A DNA stretch of 64,000 nt, taken from a bacterium (GTDB lineage: Bacteria; CAIWAD01). The position numbers were made by a program, and so were the translations under genes. The notes beneath the pieces are model-generated. The model made no database searches. It worked only from the letters and a program-made list of their open reading frames with translations, and was not told the origin of the DNA. How positions within the stretch are numbered: the stretch's first letter is position 1; each line of letters opens with the position of its first letter. Where the stretch lies: NCBI GenBank assembly GCA_030685015.1, contig JAUXWS010000076.1:1-64000 (forward strand), read 5' to 3'. Shown here one piece after another: positions 1,516 to 60,848 of this stretch.

Positions 1516-2977
<1,462 letters not shown>

Positions 2978-2988
<11 letters not shown>

Positions 2989-5488
2989 GCTGTCCCCCCG
3001 TCCTGCCGGGTAGGTCCGGGCATGGCCCGTCCGCCCCGTCCCCACTGACGTCCGCTAGCGCCGGCCAGTCCACCAGGGCCAGCGTGCCGCCCTCCACCAC
3101 CCTCTCCAGGCGCAGCGCGGCGCCATTCTGGCGCAGCACCTTGCGCGCGAAGAAGAGACCATAGCCATAGCCATCGGGTTTGGTGCTGAAGCCCGGTTCC
3201 CAGATCCGCTCGCGCAGCTCGTCGGGGATGCCCGGCCCGCTGTCCTGGATGGCCAGGCGCCAGCCGGGCGAGCCGTCCTCGCGCCGCGTCTCGTGCAGAT
3301 CCACCACCAGCGGGCCGGCGCGCTCCATGGCTTCCAGCGCATTGGTAAGCAGGCCGCCCAGAGCCAGGGCCAGACCCTCCCCGTCGCCGCGGATCCAGGC
3401 CGGCCCGGCCGGCAGGCGGAGGGCAAGATCCACCTGCGGCAGGTGGCTGGCGCCGCAATGGATCAGGGCCTGGGGCACCGTCCCGCGCAGATCCAGGCGC
3501 CCTTCCGGCTGCCGCTCACCGGCCAGCCGCATGAACTGGCGCACCAGCTGGTGCATGTGCTCCAGCTCCTCGCGCATGCGCGTCAGCACGCGCTCAAGGC
3601 CCGGCGTGCCGCCCGGGTGGACCGCCTCCACCTCGCGGCGCAGCTGGTCCAGCCCCAAGCGCAGCGGCGTCATGGGCGACTTCAGTTCGTGGGTGATCAT
3701 GCCCGCCAGGCTGCGGAACTTGCGTCCCTCGCTCGCTTCGCGTTCGGAGGTCTCGTCGAACCCGATCCAGACGCTGCCCAGCGGGCGGGGTCCGCGCTCC
3801 AGGGGCCGCCGGAACCAGCGCAACCAACGCCCGCCCGTCTCCAGCGTGCGGCTGTCCTCGGGCGCCAGGCCGTCCAGCAGGGCGGCCAGCCGGCGGCGCG
3901 TGCCCTCGTCCGCCCACAGGGCGTGGAACTCGCGGTTGGCGTAGAGCACCTTGCCGCGGGAGTCGACCAGGGCCACGGGCTGTGCGTTGTCGTCCACGAT
4001 GCCGCGCAGGAGGCGTTCCTGGCGGTGGATGCGGACTCCCAGCAGCATGAACAAAGCCAGGAGTCCGCCACCGCCGGCCCACCAGGTAGCAGGTTGCCGA
4101 CCGAGGCGCCGCCAGACCGGAACCGGCAGCAGGGCGAAGGACTCCAGCCAGTCGTCGTGCAGCACGTGCACGACGAGCCGGCCCATGCCCGGACCCTGGC
4201 AGTGCAGCAGCTCGCCCCGGGGCTGGGCCACATGGATGCGTCCGCGCGAGCGCCCATCGCGGCTCAGGATCCAGAGTTCGTCGCGCGGGGCGCGCATGGT
4301 CACATGGCCTTCCACCAAGCGGGGCCGGTGGCCATCGGCGGGCAAGGCAAGGGTCCCCGTCACGCGCAGCGGATGGATGCGACAGCGGCTGAGGCGCTCC
4401 GCATCCAGCACCAGCACCTCCGGGAACTCGGCGCCAGGCGACGTCCCGCCCCAGTCGGCGGAGATCAGGCCCGGCCAATGGTGCTTCCACAACAAGCGCT
4501 GGGTCCAGCCGTCCACCAGGGCCAGGTTGAAGGTGTCCCCCGCCTGGGGGGCGAAACGCATGGAGGTGTGGAGCAGGAGGTGGCGCTTGTCCGGCGCGAC
4601 CACCACCCCGTAGCTGTTGTGGGCGACGCCCAGGTTCAGGCCCGGGCGGAAGCCGGAGTCGGGATCGAAGGAGAGCAGCCCTCCCCAGCTGTCGTCCAGG
4701 CCGCCCAGCCTGTTGCCGTTCCTGGCGATCAGGCCTTCGCTGTAGAGGCGCGGCCGCCCGTGGACGTCCAGGGCCAGGTCCTCCGCCCGGCGGTTCTGGC
4801 TGGCGCCACAGGGGAAGAACTGGAAGCCGGGCTCAGACCCGCCCAGATCCGCCATGACCACTCCGCGCCACCCCAGGAAGTGCGCGGTCACAGAGATCAG
4901 GGCGCGCTCGCCCGCGGCGGTGGGGACGAAGAGGAAGCAGCTCAGCTCCGGCGCGTTCTGCCAGGAATGCGGATGGGTGGCCGGGGTGAAGAGCGGGTTC
5001 TGCCAGTAGATCTGGTAGTCGGATTCATGGGGCCGCCGGCGGCACAGGTTCAGGAAGATGGTGGTGGTGTCGGCCGAGGCCGTGAGCGCCGCCAGCCAGG
5101 AGCTGCCGTCGGCGCTGGATGCGGCAAAGAGCTCCGGCAGCAAATGGCGTCCGGCGAGGAAGGGTTGCAGGTTGGGCAGCGGGGTGTCCGGCTGCTGCCG
5201 GTTGATCTTGATGGAGGGCGGCAGGGATGAATGTGGGCGCGGGATCACCAGGCGCTCCTGTCGGCCGTCCCCGTCCAGGTCCGCCAGCGTGGCGCAGCCG
5301 GCGGTCCCTTCCATCATATAGGAACGGCCCTCCCAGCCCACGCCGGGCGCCAGCCAGAACTCAGCCAGCAGCCCGGCGCCGGCCGCGAAGGACAGCACGG
5401 CCAGCAGACCCAGGGCCAGGGTGCGGGGCAGGCTTTCCAGGAAGAAGCGCTGGGGACGCTGGGGCGGCATGGCTCGCTCTGTTTTCAT
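2978..5488 (-). CDS. Membrane sensor histidine kinase with large periplasmic sensor
   Basis: An 836-residue sensor kinase, the partner of the response regulator that overlaps its 3' end. A first membrane helix lies at about 18-45. About 420 residues of predicted periplasmic sequence follow, starting with a CATLADLDGDGRQERLV segment that resembles an FG-GAP/VCBS repeat. A second helix lies near 465-485 and a PAS-like domain at about 495-590 (PVALVDSRGKVLYANREF). The HisKA motif MITHELKSPMTPLRL has its phospho-acceptor His near 597. The ATPase domain has an N box (LLTNALEAME), G1 (DSGPGI) and G2 (GYGYGLFFARK). The sensor domain is unusually long and its ligand is unknown; a beta-propeller that samples the cell surface is possible. 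The start MKTERAM was taken; MPPQRPQ seven codons later is an alternative. Confidence 0.9.
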
Positions 5489-5603
5489 CGATCACAATGC
5501 AATCCGCATGCCGGGAGGACACCCTGTCTCACGTCGGTAGGGGCCTTCAGACCAATTGCGTCACTCATGCGAGGGTGCAGCCGCCTTCCCATTGGTCAAG
5601 TGC

Positions 5604-26223: not shown

Positions 26224-28971
26224 CTATTCCACCACCTGCTTGCCGATGCTGGCCGTCACACAATAGAAGCAGATGGGCTGATAGTGCGGATCCCGCCATC
26301 GGGTCAACGAGGTGGTGGCCGCCAGGTTCTCCAGCCGGACGAGGCCGTAAGGCTGGCTGCTGCGATAGATGCGATACTCCACGCTGATGGGGATGCCCCC
26401 CACGCTGATGTCCACCGGGTCCCACTCCAGCGGCTCGTCCCCGTCCACCATCGGACCCGTGCTGATGGCGAAAACCGGACGGGGGATGATCAAGGGCTTG
26501 ACGGGCTGGGCTCGATCCGATTCCCGGATGACCGGACCTTCGGTGGGGCACTGCAGATTCCAATGGCAGGCCGTGGCCGTCACGCTGGACGAGGAGTGGT
26601 TCAGCAGGCCCACGTCGTGGCTCTCCACGAAGTCGCAATTCTGCAACGTCAGATCGCCGTGATCGGTCGCCAGGATCAGGTCGCGGCGATTGCCCTGGAA
26701 ATGGACGGAATCCAGCACCATCACCGCGCCGGCCTCGGCCACCAGGCCATCCTCGCAGGTGAGCACCTGGCAGCCGCGCAGTTCCAGCCGGGAAGCCCTG
26801 TTCACCACGGCCACCCCCGTGCCGCTGGTGATCACACAATCCTCCAGCAACACATCGCTGGCATCCTGGAAGCGCAGGCCTTGCGTCCCGGGCTGAAAGA
26901 GGCAATCGCGGGCCCGCAGCGTCACGCCCCGGGTCCACAGGCCCCGGGTGCCGGCCAGCAACCAGCTATGCTCGATGGAAAGGGTGCAGGCCTGCACGGC
27001 CAGGGGCTCCGGCAGTGCGTGCAGCAGGCATTGGCGGAAGCTGAGGTGTGCCCCCCGCCCCACCGTAAGTTGCAGCGTGCTGAGCAGGTTGTTGGCGGGC
27101 GTCTGGATGCCGGGCTGGGGCATCTGCGCCACCACCCCAGTGCCCCGCAATTCGAAGCGTCCTTCCACGGCCAGGGGCAGGCGCCCGCAGCAGGCCGGCT
27201 GGCAGCGGTCGTCCAGGGACAAGCTGCCCAGCGGCCCCACCCAGATGCCACCCTGGGACAGAAGTTCGCCGCTCAAGCGGAGGCTGCCCCGGACCAGTTC
27301 CAGGTCCATCAGCTCGACGTCGGCCAAATCCAGGCCGCTCTCCGGCAGGGCCACGGCCCCTCCCAGCAGGTCCGGCGTGGTGCCCGGCGGCAGCGGCTGC
27401 AAGGTGAGAGCCCCGCGCCGGCGATCCCCCAGCGGATGGGGCGGCCGCAAGTCCTGCCAGCCGGTGGGCCAAGCCACCCACCGACCGAGGCGATCCCCTG
27501 CCACCAGGTCCAGGCTGCCGTCGCCGTCCAGGTCGGTCAGGCGGGGCGGGCCGTTGGGCGCCTCGGGCAGCCACCAGTCGCGCTCCTCCACGTGGCCTGC
27601 CAGATCCACCGCCATCAACCGGGTGGCCCAGGCGTCCTCGGCGGGATCGATTGTCAACAGCAGCCGGGGACCCAGAACGGCATCCCGCACCAATTGCGGC
27701 GGCTGGACCGCCTTGCCTTCGGTCGCCACCACGAATCCCGCCAGCGGCAGAAAGGCGCCCGAGGCGTTCAAGACCTGCAGGCGCACTGCGCCGTCGTCAT
27801 GCCGGCAGAGCAGGGCCACTTCCTGGGCGCCGTCGCCGTCCAGGTCGGCCAGGGTGAACTGGCCCAGGGTGGCGGCGGGGATGGCAGCGCTCCATTTCAG
27901 GCCGTCCAGGTCCAGAGCCAGCACGGGACCGCGCCGGGCGGCCAGCACCAGGTCCGGCACAAGATCGCCGTCCAGGTCGCCACTGGCGATGGAGACGATC
28001 TCCATGTCCGGCAAAACATGGAGCAGATCAAGCTCCCCGCTCGCACCATCCAACATGTGCAGTTGCAGGCCCCCACCCTGGCGGAGCAGCATCAGCACGT
28101 CCAGGCGGCCATCTCCGTTGTAATCACCCAGGACCGGGCGGGGCCAGGCCGGCTGACCCGGAAGCGGCACGCCGGCCACGTGCTGCAGGCTGGCGTCGAA
28201 CTGGAGCAGGCTGGCCTGCTCCTGCTGCTGGACGTAGATCAGGCAATGGACACCCGCTCCGGCAATGGGCAGCAGCACGGGCGGGCCCAGGGGCAGGCCG
28301 TTGCAGGATGCCTGGGAGCACAACTGACCCGTGCGATCAAGCTCCACCAGATGTGTCTTGGTGGCGGCGAGCACGTGCTGCTCCGCGCCGCGCCGGACCA
28401 GGAGCGGCTCCGAGCGATGGGAGATGGCCTGCATCAAGTCGACGAAAGCGACGGGCCAACCGGGCAGGGTCTGGCCCTGGGCATCCAACCAGAGCAGCTC
28501 CCCCAGGTTCTGCGCTTCCCGCGCGACCCCGGCGATGCGCGCCGCCACGATCTCGCCTTGTCCGCATTCCGCCATCAGGCCCTGGCTGAAAGGCGCGGCG
28601 GCCAAGCCATCCGCGTAGGGCCAGCCGGGCAGGGCGGGGGCGGTGACGACCAGCTCGACCTCATGGCGGACGACGCCGTGGGCACCCGTCTGCGCCAGTT
28701 CCAGGCGATGGAGTCCGGCCGGCAGACCGCCGGAAAAGATCCGCGTGCCGGAGGCCACGTTGCCCACACCCTCGGCCAGCAGGGTGGGCCAACCGTCGTT
28801 GTGGTCCCACAGGATCCAGCTGCCCGTCGCGTCATCCACCTGGATGCGCACCTCCAGGTCGCCGGCGGCCAGGTGACGCGGTGGCGGCCATTCGATCCAG
28901 GTCGTCGCCCGGACCGTGCCGGCCAGGATCAGGGCCGCGACGGCGCAGCCGGCCAGGATGCGAGTCCTCAT
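26224..28971 (-). CDS. Secreted FG-GAP / beta-helix protein
   Basis: A 915-residue exported protein (signal peptide AGCAVAALILAGTVRA). Residues about 280-495 contain four FG-GAP/VCBS-type calcium loops: GDYNGDGRLD, GDLDGDLVPD, ADLDGDGAQE and TDLDGDGSLD. Residues about 560-830 look like a right-handed beta-helix (parallel repeats such as LRFQDASDVLLEDCVITSGT and VLDSVHFQGNRRDLI). The C-terminal end is fibronectin-like (EYRIYRSSQPYGLVRLENLA). It stops where related proteins carry a PNPFNP sorting tail, so anchoring is unclear. The ATG overlaps the stop of the upstream sigma-54 activator as ATGA, which ties it to that regulator. Function unknown; surface binding or polysaccharide contact is possible. 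Confidence 0.75.
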   Translation of the reverse strand: MRTRILAGCAVAALILAGTVRATTWIEWPPPRHLAAGDLEVRIQVDDATGSWILWDHNDGWPTLLAEGVGNVASGTRIFSGGLPAGLHRLELAQTGAHGVVRHEVELVVTAPALPGWPYADGLAAAPFSQGLMAECGQGEIVAARIAGVAREAQNLGELLWLDAQGQTLPGWPVAFVDLMQAISHRSEPLLVRRGAEQHVLAATKTHLVELDRTGQLCSQASCNGLPLGPPVLLPIAGAGVHCLIYVQQQEQASLLQFDASLQHVAGVPLPGQPAWPRPVLGDYNGDGRLDVLMLLRQGGGLQLHMLDGASGELDLLHVLPDMEIVSIASGDLDGDLVPDLVLAARRGPVLALDLDGLKWSAAIPAATLGQFTLADLDGDGAQEVALLCRHDDGAVRLQVLNASGAFLPLAGFVVATEGKAVQPPQLVRDAVLGPRLLLTIDPAEDAWATRLMAVDLAGHVEERDWWLPEAPNGPPRLTDLDGDGSLDLVAGDRLGRWVAWPTGWQDLRPPHPLGDRRRGALTLQPLPPGTTPDLLGGAVALPESGLDLADVELMDLELVRGSLRLSGELLSQGGIWVGPLGSLSLDDRCQPACCGRLPLAVEGRFELRGTGVVAQMPQPGIQTPANNLLSTLQLTVGRGAHLSFRQCLLHALPEPLAVQACTLSIEHSWLLAGTRGLWTRGVTLRARDCLFQPGTQGLRFQDASDVLLEDCVITSGTGVAVVNRASRLELRGCQVLTCEDGLVAEAGAVMVLDSVHFQGNRRDLILATDHGDLTLQNCDFVESHDVGLLNHSSSSVTATACHWNLQCPTEGPVIRESDRAQPVKPLIIPRPVFAISTGPMVDGDEPLEWDPVDISVGGIPISVEYRIYRSSQPYGLVRLENLAATTSLTRWRDPHYQPICFYCVTASIGKQVVE

Positions 28972-30944
28972 GGCGACGTCTCCTGCTCAAGTCCGGCCGG
29001 GCCATCCCCCAGGCGCAGCTTGCGTGAATGGATGCCGTGCTTGGCGATCTTGTACTTCAGGGCCCGGGCGCTCAGGCCCAGGTCCTCTGCCGCGCGGTCG
29101 CGGTTCCCGGCGCGGCACTCGAGGGCGTGCAGGATGAGCCGTTTCTCCAGTCCCTGCAGCGCCTCCTCCAGGTTGAGGGTGGAGTCACCCCGGATGCGCC
29201 CCAGCAGATCGGTCAGCCAGGCCTCCTGACACCCGCTCCCCTGCTGCGCCGGCGTGGCCTTCGTCCGCGGCGCGGGCAGGCCCAGGTCCTCCGCCTCGAT
29301 CTCCCGGCGCGCGGTTTGGTAGCCCCGTGTCACGGCATTGCGCAGCTCGCGCACATTGCCGGGGAAGGCGTGCTCGTTCAAGGCCTGCATGGCGTCCGTG
29401 GACAGGCACTTGTCCGTGCCATGCTGGCGGTTGAGCCGCTCCAGCATGCTTGAGGCGATGAAGTAGACATCCTCCCGCCTGTCCCGCAGCGCCGGCAGCT
29501 CCACGCGGAAGGCGCTGATGCGCATGATGAGGTCGTCTCGGAACTGGCGCTGCGCCGTCAACTCACCCAGGTCGCGGTTGGTGGCGGAGATGATCCGCGC
29601 ATTGGAGTAATGCACCTGGCCGCTTCCCATGCGCTGATACTCGCCGCTCTCCAGGAAGCGCAGGAGCTTGGGCTGGATGGAGAGCGGCAGGTCGCCGATC
29701 TCGTCCAGGAAGATGCTCCCCTCCCCCGCCAGCTCGACCAGCCCCTTGCGGTCCTGGTCGGCTCCGGTGAAGGCGCCCCGCACGTGGCCGAAGAGGGTGC
29801 TCTCGAAGAGGGTCTCGGGTATGGCCGGGCAGTTGACCGGCACGAAGGGCGCGGCGCGGCGCGGTCCGGCGTTGTGGAGGGCCCGTGCCACCAGCTCCTT
29901 GCCCGTCCCCGTCTCGCCCAGGACCAACACGGGCAGATCGGAGGCGGCCAGGGCCTGCACGTCGTGCAGGATGCGGCGCATGATCGCCGACACGGCCACG
30001 ATGCCGTGCTGGGTGATGAGGGCCTCCACCAGCCCGAAGTCGTCCTTGGCCTGCTCCTCCTGGGTCTGCAGGATCTCCTGGCAGGCCTCGCGCACCCAAT
30101 CGTCCTGCTGTTCCAGGCGTCGGCCGATCTCGAGAGCCTCGCCCGCCAGGAGGCGGGCCTCGCCGGGCATGCCGTCGCCCTGCCGGATGCGGGCCAGGTT
30201 GGCCAGGATCAAGGGCAGGTAGCGGTCCAGGCGATGCCGCCGCGCCAGATCCTGGGCCTTGTCGAAGAAGACCCAGGCCTTGTCGGGTAGATTGGCGTCC
30301 ACCATCAGCGTGCCCACGTTCAGTTCCACGCGCAGCTGCCGCTCGGGATCCGGGCCGGCCAGCTCCCGCGACCGTTCGATGTGGCCCGTGGCGGCCACGG
30401 GATCACCCAGCACGTGCCGGAGCACGCCCAGGTTCAGCTCGATGTCCGCCTCGAGCGTGCTCTCGCCCCCGGCGCGGGCCAGCTCCAGGGCCTGGGCCAG
30501 CTGGCTCTCCGCCTCTCCCAGCTCGCCGCAGCGTGTGCAGAGCGAACCCAGCAGGTTGCGGATCTGCATCTCCTCCTGGGGCCGGGTGAGGACTTCGCTG
30601 GCGAGGACGGCCCGATAGAACTGCAGGGCCGTGCCCGTCTCCCCCAGGTTCTTCGTCGCCAAGCCTGCGTTCATGAGGGCCTTGAAGCCGATCGCCCGCC
30701 ACTCGGGCCGATGCCGATGCTGGCGCACGTCGCGGTACAGGTCGAAGTAGTGGTCGCGGGCCTGCCGGTTGCGACCGCTGCGCAGCAGGGCGTTCCCCCA
30801 CAGGAGGCGCAGCTGCAGCCGGTCGCCCGGATCCGGCAGGCGCTCCAGGTCCCGCGGGAAGGCGTCCAGGGCATCCTGGAAACGACGTTCACGCAAGGCC
30901 GCCACGGAGGACAACCGGGATATGTTCTTCCGTTGACTCACCAC
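28968..30944 (-). CDS. Sigma-54-dependent activator with TPR sensor domain
   Basis: A 658-residue activator. Residues about 1-300 are TPR-like helical repeats (ALQFYRAVLASEVLTRPQEE, EAESQLAQALELARAGGEST) in place of a receiver domain. The AAA+ domain spans about 320-550, with GETGTGKE near 341, the canonical loop GAFTGA near 391, GSIFLDEIGDL and FPGNVRELRNAV. A Fis-type helix-turn-helix (NRDRAAEDLGLSARALKYKIA) ends it. It should open sigma-54 promoters when the TPR region binds a peptide or protein signal rather than by phosphorylation. GTG at 30944 is the start; no clear ribosome site. It is translationally coupled to the secreted FG-GAP protein. Target genes are unknown. Confidence 0.9.
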   Translation of the reverse strand: MVSQRKNISRLSSVAALRERRFQDALDAFPRDLERLPDPGDRLQLRLLWGNALLRSGRNRQARDHYFDLYRDVRQHRHRPEWRAIGFKALMNAGLATKNLGETGTALQFYRAVLASEVLTRPQEEMQIRNLLGSLCTRCGELGEAESQLAQALELARAGGESTLEADIELNLGVLRHVLGDPVAATGHIERSRELAGPDPERQLRVELNVGTLMVDANLPDKAWVFFDKAQDLARRHRLDRYLPLILANLARIRQGDGMPGEARLLAGEALEIGRRLEQQDDWVREACQEILQTQEEQAKDDFGLVEALITQHGIVAVSAIMRRILHDVQALAASDLPVLVLGETGTGKELVARALHNAGPRRAAPFVPVNCPAIPETLFESTLFGHVRGAFTGADQDRKGLVELAGEGSIFLDEIGDLPLSIQPKLLRFLESGEYQRMGSGQVHYSNARIISATNRDLGELTAQRQFRDDLIMRISAFRVELPALRDRREDVYFIASSMLERLNRQHGTDKCLSTDAMQALNEHAFPGNVRELRNAVTRGYQTARREIEAEDLGLPAPRTKATPAQQGSGCQEAWLTDLLGRIRGDSTLNLEEALQGLEKRLILHALECRAGNRDRAAEDLGLSARALKYKIAKHGIHSRKLRLGDGPAGLEQETSP

Positions 30945-57284: not shown

Positions 57285-59459
57285 CTACTTGACCAGGATC
57301 ATCTTCTTCAAGTCGCTGAAGCTCGGAGTCTCCAGCTTGTAGAAGTAGACACCGCTGGCCAGGCTGGCCCCGTCGAAACTGACCGTGTAGCGGCCCGCGG
57401 CTTTCTGGCCGTTGACCAGGGTGGCCACCTTGGCGCCCAGCATGTTGTAGACGCTCAGGTTGACCTGGCCCGCCACCGGCAGCGCGAACTCGATGCTGGT
57501 GGTGGGGTTGAAGGGGTTCGGGTAGTTCTGGCCCAGGCTGTAGGCGGTGGGCAGGCGGTTCTCGACGCTGGTGTAGAACTGCACATAGTTGGCCGGATCG
57601 CTGCGGTTCTCGTGGTAGTCCACGGCCACGGCCCAGAAATACACGGGCTGGTTCTCCACCAGCTGGCCGAAGGGCAGGGAGAAGGTGGCGCTGGTCTGGG
57701 GACCCTCATAGAGCGGCACGCCGGTGTTGATGTCGTTCTGCAGGGAGCTGGTCACGATGAAGCGGTCGAAATCGTTGACCGGATTCTGGTTCCAGCTCAG
57801 GGGGAGACGGTCTTCGGTGGGCGGCCAGGCGTCATAGGCCCAACCGGCGTCATCCAGACCCGTCACCATCACGGGCACGATGTTGTCCACGGAGAAGCCC
57901 TGCATGACGGCGGAGGGGATGGGCACCGGGAAATGCACGCTGTGCGTCCCGATCATGAAGGAATGGATGTTCTCATGGCCTTCGTACTGGTCGTCGAGGG
58001 TGGCCACCTGCACGTTGTAGGTCATGCCGGGGATGCCCAGGGCGGCGACGGTGCCAGCGGAGACCCACTCGTTCTCGCCCATGCCCGGGTACTGCATCCA
58101 CACCGAGTACATGGTGGTGGGATTCATCCAGGAGCCGTCGTTGGGGCTGGCCGCGAACTGGACGACGACGTAGCCGCCCTGGTCGTTGGGCCGGTCGTTG
58201 ACCGCCAGGATGCTGGCCGGGTGCATGATCTGGAACTGGTTGAAGGGGAAGGCGCCCATGTCGGCCGGCGTGCCGTCGGGGTCGATCTCCAGCTCGCTGA
58301 CGGAGACGTCGATGATGCAGTTGACCTCGGTGGGATCGCTCAGGGACCAGTAGGAGACGTTGAAATTCATGGCCATGGGGTTCACATAGCCCGGGTTGCA
58401 GTACCAGGCCGGCAGCACCATGTCATCGGGGAAGCCCGAGTTCTGCGGATAGATGTTGGTGAAGAAGACGTTGGTGAAGCCCACACCCGTCACATCCGTG
58501 TTGGCCGGAGTGGCGAAGGTGATGAGGTTCATGCCGGACTCGAAGAGGGCGTTGGCGCCGCCCAGGAAGATGCCGCCGCTGGTCGTGCCATGGTTGTGGG
58601 AAATGGTGCTGTTGTAGACGGACAGCACGCCGCCGTCCGCCACGTAGGCCGCCGCGCCGTTGCCCACGCAGGTGTTGTGGGCGATGAGGCAATTGAAGAG
58701 GCGGACCCAGCCGCCATCCTCCACCGTGATGGCGCCGCCGTCATCCCCGGAGTGGACGTCCGTGATGGAACAGAAGGTGAGGTCCGCGTCGGCTCCTTCG
58801 CCGAAGACGATGCCGTTCCAGTCCTCGCCCACGAAGCGGATCCAGTTCCCGCGAGTGCCCTGGGCCTCCATGTCGCCCTGGATGATGAGGCTGGTTCCCG
58901 GCAGGCCGTAGACCTCCATGCCCGCCTCGATGTGCAGCAGCTCACCCGCCTCGACCGTGAAGTCCTCGGTGAGGGCGACCTGGCCGCCGGGGAAGTTGGC
59001 GAAGGTCCACTCCAACCCTGGATTGAAGGGCACGCAACCGTCCAACTCCTCCCCCGTGATGTCCACGTTCACCGGAAAGAGGGGTCCGCAGCCGTAGAAC
59101 ATGCTGAAGATGGGAGGCAGGTGGGTGAATTCGAAATGGAAGCCCGGCCCGTCGAAACTGACCCACAGCTCGTCGATGATGTAGGTCAAGGCGCAATTGA
59201 CCTGGGCATCGGCATCCGCTTGGAATGAATACACCAAGGGCTGGCCGCTCGGACCGAAAATGTTGCAATTGATGGTGTAGGTTTGGGCCGGGTTGGCCGG
59301 ATTGTACATGTGGACGGTGGCCGCGCTGGGGGCGCAGGAGTTCGGGTTCCAGCAGGCGACAGCATCCAGGTCCGACAGGTCGACGTCCCACTGGAAGATT
59401 GCAAAGGCGCTGTTGGCGCCCGCCAGGGTCAACAGCCCAAGCAGCAGGTGTTTCTTCAT
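57285..59459 (-). CDS. Secreted beta-helix protein with type IX sorting tail
   Basis: A 724-residue exported protein; signal peptide LLLGLLTLAGANSAFA. Residues about 50-130 contain a module shared with two neighbouring secreted proteins (NIFGPSGQPLVYSFQ, IFSMFYGCGPLFPV). About 160-330 is a right-handed beta-helix with pectate-lyase-like repeats (DLTFCSITDVHSGDDGGAIT, VLSVYNSTISHNHGTTSGGI). Residues 390-610 are beta-sandwich/fibronectin-like. The final 85 carry a type IX sorting domain with YPNPFNPTTSIEF, YNMLGAKVATL and the end LKKMILVK. It is read after the 188-codon secreted protein with a 14-base gap and shares its sigma-54 promoter. Function unknown; surface binding is possible. Confidence 0.85.
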   Translation of the reverse strand: MKKHLLLGLLTLAGANSAFAIFQWDVDLSDLDAVACWNPNSCAPSAATVHMYNPANPAQTYTINCNIFGPSGQPLVYSFQADADAQVNCALTYIIDELWVSFDGPGFHFEFTHLPPIFSMFYGCGPLFPVNVDITGEELDGCVPFNPGLEWTFANFPGGQVALTEDFTVEAGELLHIEAGMEVYGLPGTSLIIQGDMEAQGTRGNWIRFVGEDWNGIVFGEGADADLTFCSITDVHSGDDGGAITVEDGGWVRLFNCLIAHNTCVGNGAAAYVADGGVLSVYNSTISHNHGTTSGGIFLGGANALFESGMNLITFATPANTDVTGVGFTNVFFTNIYPQNSGFPDDMVLPAWYCNPGYVNPMAMNFNVSYWSLSDPTEVNCIIDVSVSELEIDPDGTPADMGAFPFNQFQIMHPASILAVNDRPNDQGGYVVVQFAASPNDGSWMNPTTMYSVWMQYPGMGENEWVSAGTVAALGIPGMTYNVQVATLDDQYEGHENIHSFMIGTHSVHFPVPIPSAVMQGFSVDNIVPVMVTGLDDAGWAYDAWPPTEDRLPLSWNQNPVNDFDRFIVTSSLQNDINTGVPLYEGPQTSATFSLPFGQLVENQPVYFWAVAVDYHENRSDPANYVQFYTSVENRLPTAYSLGQNYPNPFNPTTSIEFALPVAGQVNLSVYNMLGAKVATLVNGQKAAGRYTVSFDGASLASGVYFYKLETPSFSDLKKMILVK

Positions 59460-59473
59460 CTCGCTCTCCCATC

Positions 59474-60040
59474 TCATTTGGAATTGGCTTTCGGCTTCTC
59501 GATCGGGCGCCAGGCGCTGAACTGGACCTGCTCGGGCGTCAGGTCGAAGAAGCCTGGCTGGGCCTTCCACGGCGTGCTGTCGCAGTAGTGGGTGGCCTTC
59601 TCCTTCTCCTCGGCGTTGTAGACGCGGACGATGACCTGCTCCCAGACCTGGATGCGGTTGTCCGTGGGATCCCGCTCCTCGATGAAGATGGTCATCGTGG
59701 CGGCCACCATGCCGGGATCCCCGTTCATCAGGTTCTTGAAGCGCGCCTCGTTGTATTCCGGATTTACCAGGTCGATGCGGTCGTCGCCGATTGCGAAAGG
59801 CGGATCGACCTCGCCCACGACGGTGATCACCTCGATGTGGCGCTGGGTGAGGGGCTGCATGCCGCCGGGGGCGGTCAGGCGGAAGCCGGTCAGGCTGGCA
59901 TAGCCCGGCATGACCAGCGGCGTGGCGGGCATATCCTCCACCGCCGCGGGCGGGGGTGGCGGCGCCGTCTCGGCCAGCAGGGGCAGCGGCACGAGCAGGG
60001 CGGACAGAAGCCAGCCCCGCAAACCTCGCAGATCGGGCAT
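59474..60040 (-). CDS. Small secreted protein of unknown function
   Basis: A 188-residue exported protein, signal peptide LLSALLVPLPLLAETA, then a Pro-rich stretch (PPPPPAAVED). The rest shows IEVITVVGEVDPPFAIGDDR, NPEYNEARFKNLMNGDPGM and VWEQVIVRVYNAEEKEKATH, with a C-terminal VQFSAWRPIEKPKANSK. I do not recognise the family; it is mixed alpha/beta and lacks a sorting tail. ATG 60040 follows AAAGGAAAA. It is the first gene after the perfect sigma-54 promoter at 60154-60168 and is followed at once by the beta-helix protein, so it may be its partner in export or on the surface. Confidence 0.75.
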   Translation of the reverse strand: MPDLRGLRGWLLSALLVPLPLLAETAPPPPPAAVEDMPATPLVMPGYASLTGFRLTAPGGMQPLTQRHIEVITVVGEVDPPFAIGDDRIDLVNPEYNEARFKNLMNGDPGMVAATMTIFIEERDPTDNRIQVWEQVIVRVYNAEEKEKATHYCDSTPWKAQPGFFDLTPEQVQFSAWRPIEKPKANSK

Positions 60041-60153
60041 GGATGCTTTTCCTTTCGCGATTGGCTGACGCGCAAAAAATGTAAGGAATCCAGTCAACCC
60101 GACAATCTCCTGTCGTCCGAGGCAAGCTGGGTCCACCATGCCACGATGGCAAA

Positions 60154-60168
60154 GCAAGGCGCGTGCCA
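60154..60168 (-). promoter_or_regulatory. Perfect sigma-54 promoter
   Basis: On the minus strand TGGCACG (60168-60162), four bases, TTGC (60157-60154) and then T, a full match to TGGCACG-N4-TTGCW. The start would be near 60142, about 100 bases before the 188-codon secreted protein. Two sigma-54 activators are encoded in the window. Confidence 0.85.
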
Positions 60169-60185
60169 GACGATGTGTCGACCGG

Positions 60186-60848
60186 CTACTTGAGCAAGAG
60201 GAGGCGCATCGCCTCCGTGCGCCCCTTCGCCTCCAGCACCACCAGATAAAGCCCGGAGGGCAGCTCGGAGCCGCGGAACTCCGTGCGATGGATGCCGGCG
60301 GCGTGGTATCCCTCGGCCAGCACCTGCAAGCGCTGTCCCACCAAATTATACAGACTCAGTCGGGCAAGGCCGGGGGTGTCCAGACGGAAGCTGATCTGGG
60401 CGTCCGGATTGCAGGGATTGGGCAGAATCGACTCCAACGCGGCCGCCTGGGGCCGGCTGGCCGGAGTCAGGGCCGTGGCGCAGGAGGGAAAGGGATCGAA
60501 CAGGCCGGCGAAGGGAAAGGCGGGTCCAGGCGGATAGACGAGAGAGAAGGGCGCGGGCTGCCAGCTGTGGACAACGGCGCCGGCCTGCAGGTCGATGCGA
60601 TCGACGGCCCCCCCCTGCAACACGTCGTCGTAGTTGAACACCAGATGAAAGGCCAGCGGCATGCCGTCCGGCCCGAAGATGCCCGTGGCCGGCCAGGGCG
60701 CCGGATTGTCGTGGAGGAACATGGTGGCCTGCAACTGGCCGTGGCAGTCCTCGGGAATGAGCGTCGCGTCCAGGTCGATCTGCAGGATGGCCCCGGCGCG
60801 CAGGCTCGACACCCCGACGGCCAGCAGTCCGGTCAACAGGAATCTCAT
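60186..60848 (-). CDS. Secreted protein with shared N-module and sorting tail
   Basis: A 220-residue exported protein (signal peptide LLTGLLAVGVSSLRAGA). Residues about 25-120 are the module also seen in the two large neighbours: IFGPDGMPLAFHLVFNYDD and SWQPAPFSLVYPPGPAFPF. The tail (140-220) is a type IX sorting domain with a Cys variant LPNPCNPDAQISF, YNLVGQRLQVL and the end LRLLLLK. It appears to be little more than the shared module plus tail. It is read after the strong terminator of the preceding repeat protein, so it needs its own promoter, which was not identified. Function unknown. Confidence 0.8.
   Translation of the reverse strand: MRFLLTGLLAVGVSSLRAGAILQIDLDATLIPEDCHGQLQATMFLHDNPAPWPATGIFGPDGMPLAFHLVFNYDDVLQGGAVDRIDLQAGAVVHSWQPAPFSLVYPPGPAFPFAGLFDPFPSCATALTPASRPQAAALESILPNPCNPDAQISFRLDTPGLARLSLYNLVGQRLQVLAEGYHAAGIHRTEFRGSELPSGLYLVVLEAKGRTEAMRLLLLK

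Follow-up and report, generated by a model that had tools for sequence, protein, structure and literature searches.

Francke et al. (2011; PMC3162934) proposed that sigma-54 controls the exterior of the bacterial cell, with exopolysaccharide, LPS, lipoproteins, peptidoglycan and flagella as the functions named. Their text contains no match to "Bacteroid" or to "surface protein". In Porphyromonas gingivalis, the type IX machinery is under the control of PorXY-SigP, with SigP an ECF sigma factor (Kadowaki et al. 2016; PMC4800418).

In bacteria with a type IX system, a large share of the surface and secreted proteins is carried by it. In the genome analyzed here, promoters of the sigma-54 class precede a large number of genes for its cargo. 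The system of Francke et al. (2011) and the present one are alike in that comparative promoter analysis places sigma-54 promoters at flagella, envelope and surface functions, but the dominant target class here is type IX-tailed cargo. With PorXY-SigP (Kadowaki et al. 2016), the likeness is that type IX secretion has a regulatory route of its own; PorXY-SigP acts through an ECF sigma factor on the genes of the secretion machinery, whereas sigma-54 would act here on the cargo genes. The known transcriptional control of type IX secretion is that of the machinery, from which a cargo regulon would differ. Searches of the openly accessible literature gave no description of a sigma-54 (RpoN) regulon made up of type IX cargo genes. 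Such a regulon, with an enhancer code proper to it, is a new form of a known theme, and the promoter described below is a new member of an already known promoter class.

The promoter element and its locus

The window (the whole stretch of 64,000 nt that was analyzed) contains a single zero-mismatch match to the sigma-54 pattern (Table 1). The minus-strand sequence at 60168-60154 is TGGCACG-CGCC-TTGC-TT, an exact match to TGGCACGCGCCTTGC(TT). Compared with the near-consensus YTGGCACGN4TTGCW, GG occupies -24, GC occupies -12 and the spacing between them is correct. The element is intergenic: 145 nt separate the stop of the upstream gene (60186) from the ATG of the downstream gene (60040), and the C of -12 is 113 nt from that ATG, which is itself preceded by a Shine-Dalgarno-like stretch (AAAGGAAAAG). 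The preliminary description, which saw a full intergenic match at a sensible distance from its gene, is therefore correct on this point, and the orientation is the right one. The predicted transcription start is at about 60142, with a leader of about 100 nt.

Table 1. Coordinates of the features in the window
Feature	Position	Strand	Remarks
Sigma-54 -24/-12 promoter element, TGGCACG-CGCC-TTGC	60154..60168	minus	GG at 60167-60166, GC at 60155-60154
Predicted 5' leader of the sigma-54 transcript	60041..60142	minus	Start placed some 12 nt beyond the GC of -12, from the known -24/-12 geometry
Leader block TTGTCG-N16-TACATT, weakly conserved; may be a second promoter or a leader element	60078..60105	minus	
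First gene (P0001), small secreted protein, 188 aa	59474..60040	minus	Apparent signal peptide, no Pfam family
Second gene, 724 aa, type IX C-terminal sorting tail (Por_Secre_tail)	57285..59459	minus	14 nt after the first gene
Upstream gene, 220 aa, weak Por_Secre_tail	60186..60848	minus	Without a recognized activator site inside
Sigma-54 activator: TPR, AAA+ (GAFTGA), Fis-type HTH	28968..30905	minus	
Secreted FG-GAP/beta-helix protein	26224..28971	minus	ATGA overlap with the activator gene 28968-30905
NtrC-type response regulator: receiver, AAA+, HTH_8	1516..2988	minus	
Histidine kinase, partner of 1516-2988	2978..5470	minus	
Candidate second sigma-54 site of the window, CGGCATGCGGATTGC	5499..5513	minus	43 nt before the kinase-regulator operon (5470-1516); one mismatch to TGGCAYRN4TTGC

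Downstream of the element, the preliminary description had placed a gene for a small secreted protein followed by one for a type IX-tailed beta-helix protein. The secreted protein (P0001, taken as secreted from its N terminus alone) and the tail of the second protein (38.7 bits for Por_Secre_tail, with a cut-off of 27) both hold; the beta-helix is not confirmed, the Pfam search of that protein returning tail domains only.

Four other genomes serve for comparison. G001 and G002 belong to the same genus as the source genome (G000) and G003 to another genus of the same family; G004, 67% complete, belongs to another family of the same class. Orthologues of P0001 are present in all of them, with 72, 65, 38 and 32% identity in G001, G002, G003 and G004, respectively, and the order of the two genes is the same in G001, G002 and G003. 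The promoter is kept before the P0001 orthologues as TGGCACGCTCCTTGC in G001, TGGCATGGCGCTTGC in G002 and TGGCACAACATTTGC in G003, that is in 4/4 family genomes examined, with the remaining upstream DNA diverged. The intergenic position, the right orientation and the place kept before the orthologues support the view that 60154-60168 behaves as a promoter. RpoN-polymerase would sit on it as a closed complex until an AAA+ activator bound to an enhancer opens that complex, and this opening would turn on the small secreted protein and the type IX cargo protein jointly. Transcription from this element, its dependence on RpoN and the choice of activator we infer from sequence.

Sigma-54 sites and type IX-tailed genes in the genome

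With up to two mismatches allowed, the window has 32 matches to the sigma-54 pattern against 29 expected. Such counts are at chance level, so that genome-wide and comparative tests are needed. The gene for sigma-54 itself, on which the early proposal depended, is present: there is a single rpoN with an intact RpoN box, ARRTVQKYR (PF04552, 195 bits). Strong bEBP matches number 17, and the G-x-F-T-G/D-A loop is found in 15 of them. The strict pattern TGGCACGN4TTGC occurs nine times genome-wide (none in the backward control). The broader TGGCAYRN4TTGC gives 28 matches in the 3.6-Mb genome (again none backward) and, in three relatives, 86 against 8 for the backward control. Of the 28 sites, 25 are intergenic and three are antisense inside genes. 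Perfect sites precede flgB and flgF-type rod genes, so that known sigma-54 targets are recovered. A site is also present at dnaK; it is kept in all four family genomes (G000-G003), and the flgF site in three of the four. A conserved sigma-54 promoter at dnaK (L003 on G000 contig C40; L080, L116 and L143) is unusual for a general chaperone. The Rfam search of the promoter loci gave nothing relevant.

Near-matches of the forms TGGCGCGGCGCTTGC and TGTCACGGCGCTTGC, on contigs C2 and C58 (for example C58:23528-27000), were rejected as promoters. They recur as opposite-strand pairs about 50 nt apart, with several hundred bases between pairs, and represent a dispersed repeat.

The genome has 74 Por_Secre_tail matches, and SprA, the type IX outer-membrane translocon, is encoded in a single frame of 2400 aa (it is present in 5/5 genomes examined). 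Contigs were sampled as stretches around the sites and the tail genes. The preliminary description had advised scanning the genome for TGGCACG-N4-TTGC before genes with sorting tails, and the enrichment is there: 12 of the 28 TGGCAYRN4TTGC sites stand directly before a Por_Secre_tail gene, compared with 0.7 expected (P ~7e-13), and 14 of 28 when the tail may be on the second gene of the operon, compared with 1.4 (P ~1e-11), both hypergeometric P values being based on an estimated 2880 genes. Seen from the tail genes, a sense-strand site within 300 nt upstream (at most one mismatch, GG and GC kept) is found for 24/72, against 0/72 on the antisense strand and 4/79 for neighboring genes. The broader claim, of sigma-54 control over part of the surface proteome, holds across the genome at the level of sequence, with 12 to 14 of the 28 best sites at tail genes and about one third of the tailed genes provided with a site. 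On contig C18, three adjacent tailed paralogues have one site each, and a like arrangement occurs in G003.

Tail genes behind sites number at least four in G001, at least one in G002 and at least six in G003, these being lower bounds because many loci end inside the downstream gene. In G004, there are 24 sites, with flagellar genes among the targets, and 0/24 stand before a detectable tail within the stretch examined. The link between sigma-54 and tails is consequently established for the family only, and the regulon may be family-specific.

It is very probable, on this comparative evidence, that 60154-60168 is a genuine RpoN promoter of the operon formed by 59474-60040 and 57285-59459, and that it belongs to a sigma-54 set driving about one third of the type IX-tailed proteins. 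In the family, this set would also drive dnaK, genes of the flagellum and some small membrane proteins. If so, the surface proteins would be switched by activator signals and remain off unless triggered, and through the cargo regulon their expression would be coupled to that of these further targets.

Alternative readings, enhancers and activators

That the 15-base string resembles a promoter merely by chance is highly improbable. The number of window matches with two mismatches is about that of chance, and the three genome sites inside genes (out of 28) look chance-like as well, but the backward control has no match in the whole genome and the site holds its position in three other genomes despite diverged surroundings. 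On the other hand, the site could be real and the operon still be transcribed mainly from the leader block TTGTCG-N16-TACATT (60105-60078), with sigma-54 topping up. This is unlikely. The block is kept, with similar spacing, in three congeneric genomes, but its conservation is marginal (equalled by 10/200 shuffles at width 16), TTTACATT is absent upstream of the other 163 genes and the block does not match the sigma-70 consensus, no example of which turned up in a search for housekeeping promoters at the locus.

A further reading keeps the sigma-54 promoter and gives its control to one of the two sigma-54 activators of the window, for example the TPR activator. Both activators are present as had been described, one of them (28968-30905) overlapping by ATGA the gene for a secreted protein (26224-28971). 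Both are also intact bEBPs, with a GAFTGA-type loop and a Fis-type HTH, as this reading needs; however, they are 30-58 kb away from the promoter, 15 other strong bEBPs are encoded elsewhere and there is no DNA-site evidence for a link. Control by either of them is unlikely, and a tie between these activators and 60154-60168 is not supported. The candidate second site of the window makes sigma-54 self-control of the kinase-NtrC operon possible.

Upstream of many other sigma-54 promoters of the genome, the motif TGnCGGAAnTTGAACA recurs. Its distance to the -24 box is mostly 80-115 nt, and often there are two copies of it, spaced by about 20 nt. The enhancers of NtrC-type activators have similar spacing, pairing and position. 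The likeness to NtrC/NifA-type enhancers includes a partial dyad about 80-120 bp upstream, often two about 20 bp apart, and a TGT-N10-ACA-like outline. The differences are that the consensus here is TGnCGGAAnTTGAACA, a putative element, and that it is missing at the window promoter. Because the motif was discovered in the same data, a held-out test was made with a profile trained on the relatives, presence being a score above 12. The motif is then found at 10/25 intergenic sites, compared with 2/200 140-mers of the window and 6/76 upstream regions without a site. Eight of the ten positive sites are at tail genes and the other two before small membrane ORFs.

At the window promoter, the best score for TGnCGGAAnTTGAACA within 160 nt is 0.7 (true sites score above 12), and the motif is also absent at the three orthologues. 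A common-word search of the four orthologous upstream regions gives no conserved block above shuffles. Activator sites had been expected inside the upstream gene (60186-60848), where we did not observe any that could be recognized from the rest of the regulon. The window operon therefore falls within the sigma-54 regulon and outside the sub-regulon with the shared enhancer, and its promoter probably answers to a different activator or has a weak or unusual site.

For the other promoters, the assignment of TGnCGGAAnTTGAACA to an activator was by proximity and leaves many candidates among the 17 strong bEBPs. We would put at a little under even the chances that, in this uncultured family, one dedicated TGnCGGAAnTTGAACA-binding activator makes sigma-54 the master switch for much of the type IX secretome and for conserved membrane peptides of 36-50 aa (with an mRNA folded from end to end, as in type I toxins), further activators serving other cargo such as that of the window operon. 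The promoter-plus-enhancer code is testable in a lineage for which no named isolate was found.

Small membrane ORFs and candidate small RNAs

A sigma-54 promoter with two enhancer copies occurs before a conserved membrane ORF of 50 aa (MEKIFEV...ISSPVFLILLLVLCLFGM; L160:1415-1679, G000 contig C67, minus strand, site 42178-42164), with orthologues in L118 (G001), L104 (G002) and L067 (G003). In its mRNA, the 5' leader is complementary to the 3' end over about 25 nt (fold z-score -5.4), and seven pairs of the fold have changes on both sides. The predicted fold is reminiscent of type I toxin mRNAs, which are likewise folded from end to end. A second tiny membrane ORF with a sigma-54 promoter, of 36 aa (MSKVMKRRVTDFRKRVDLYFSSPLFLLLLVAAFMLM; L161, G000 contig C66, minus strand, site 7541-7527), is conserved in four genomes (also L113, L107 and L061). 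The motif SSPxFLxLL is common to the two ORFs.

Two further sites precede candidate small RNAs. In L004:1501-1700 (G000 contig C43, from 93221 onward), about 150 nt free of ORFs separate the sigma-54 site from a terminator-like hairpin downstream of it; this candidate has no Rfam match, and L065 and L131 show high conservation of its downstream part (TTTAGCTGTGTGTGACGCGACA...). In L154 (G000 contig C59), a bEBP gene lies 48 nt ahead of the sigma-54 site (113205-113219); about 190 nt beyond the site comes a terminator-like hairpin, and there is no ORF. This layout of bEBP gene, sigma-54 site and candidate small RNA is the same as in cbrB-crcZ.
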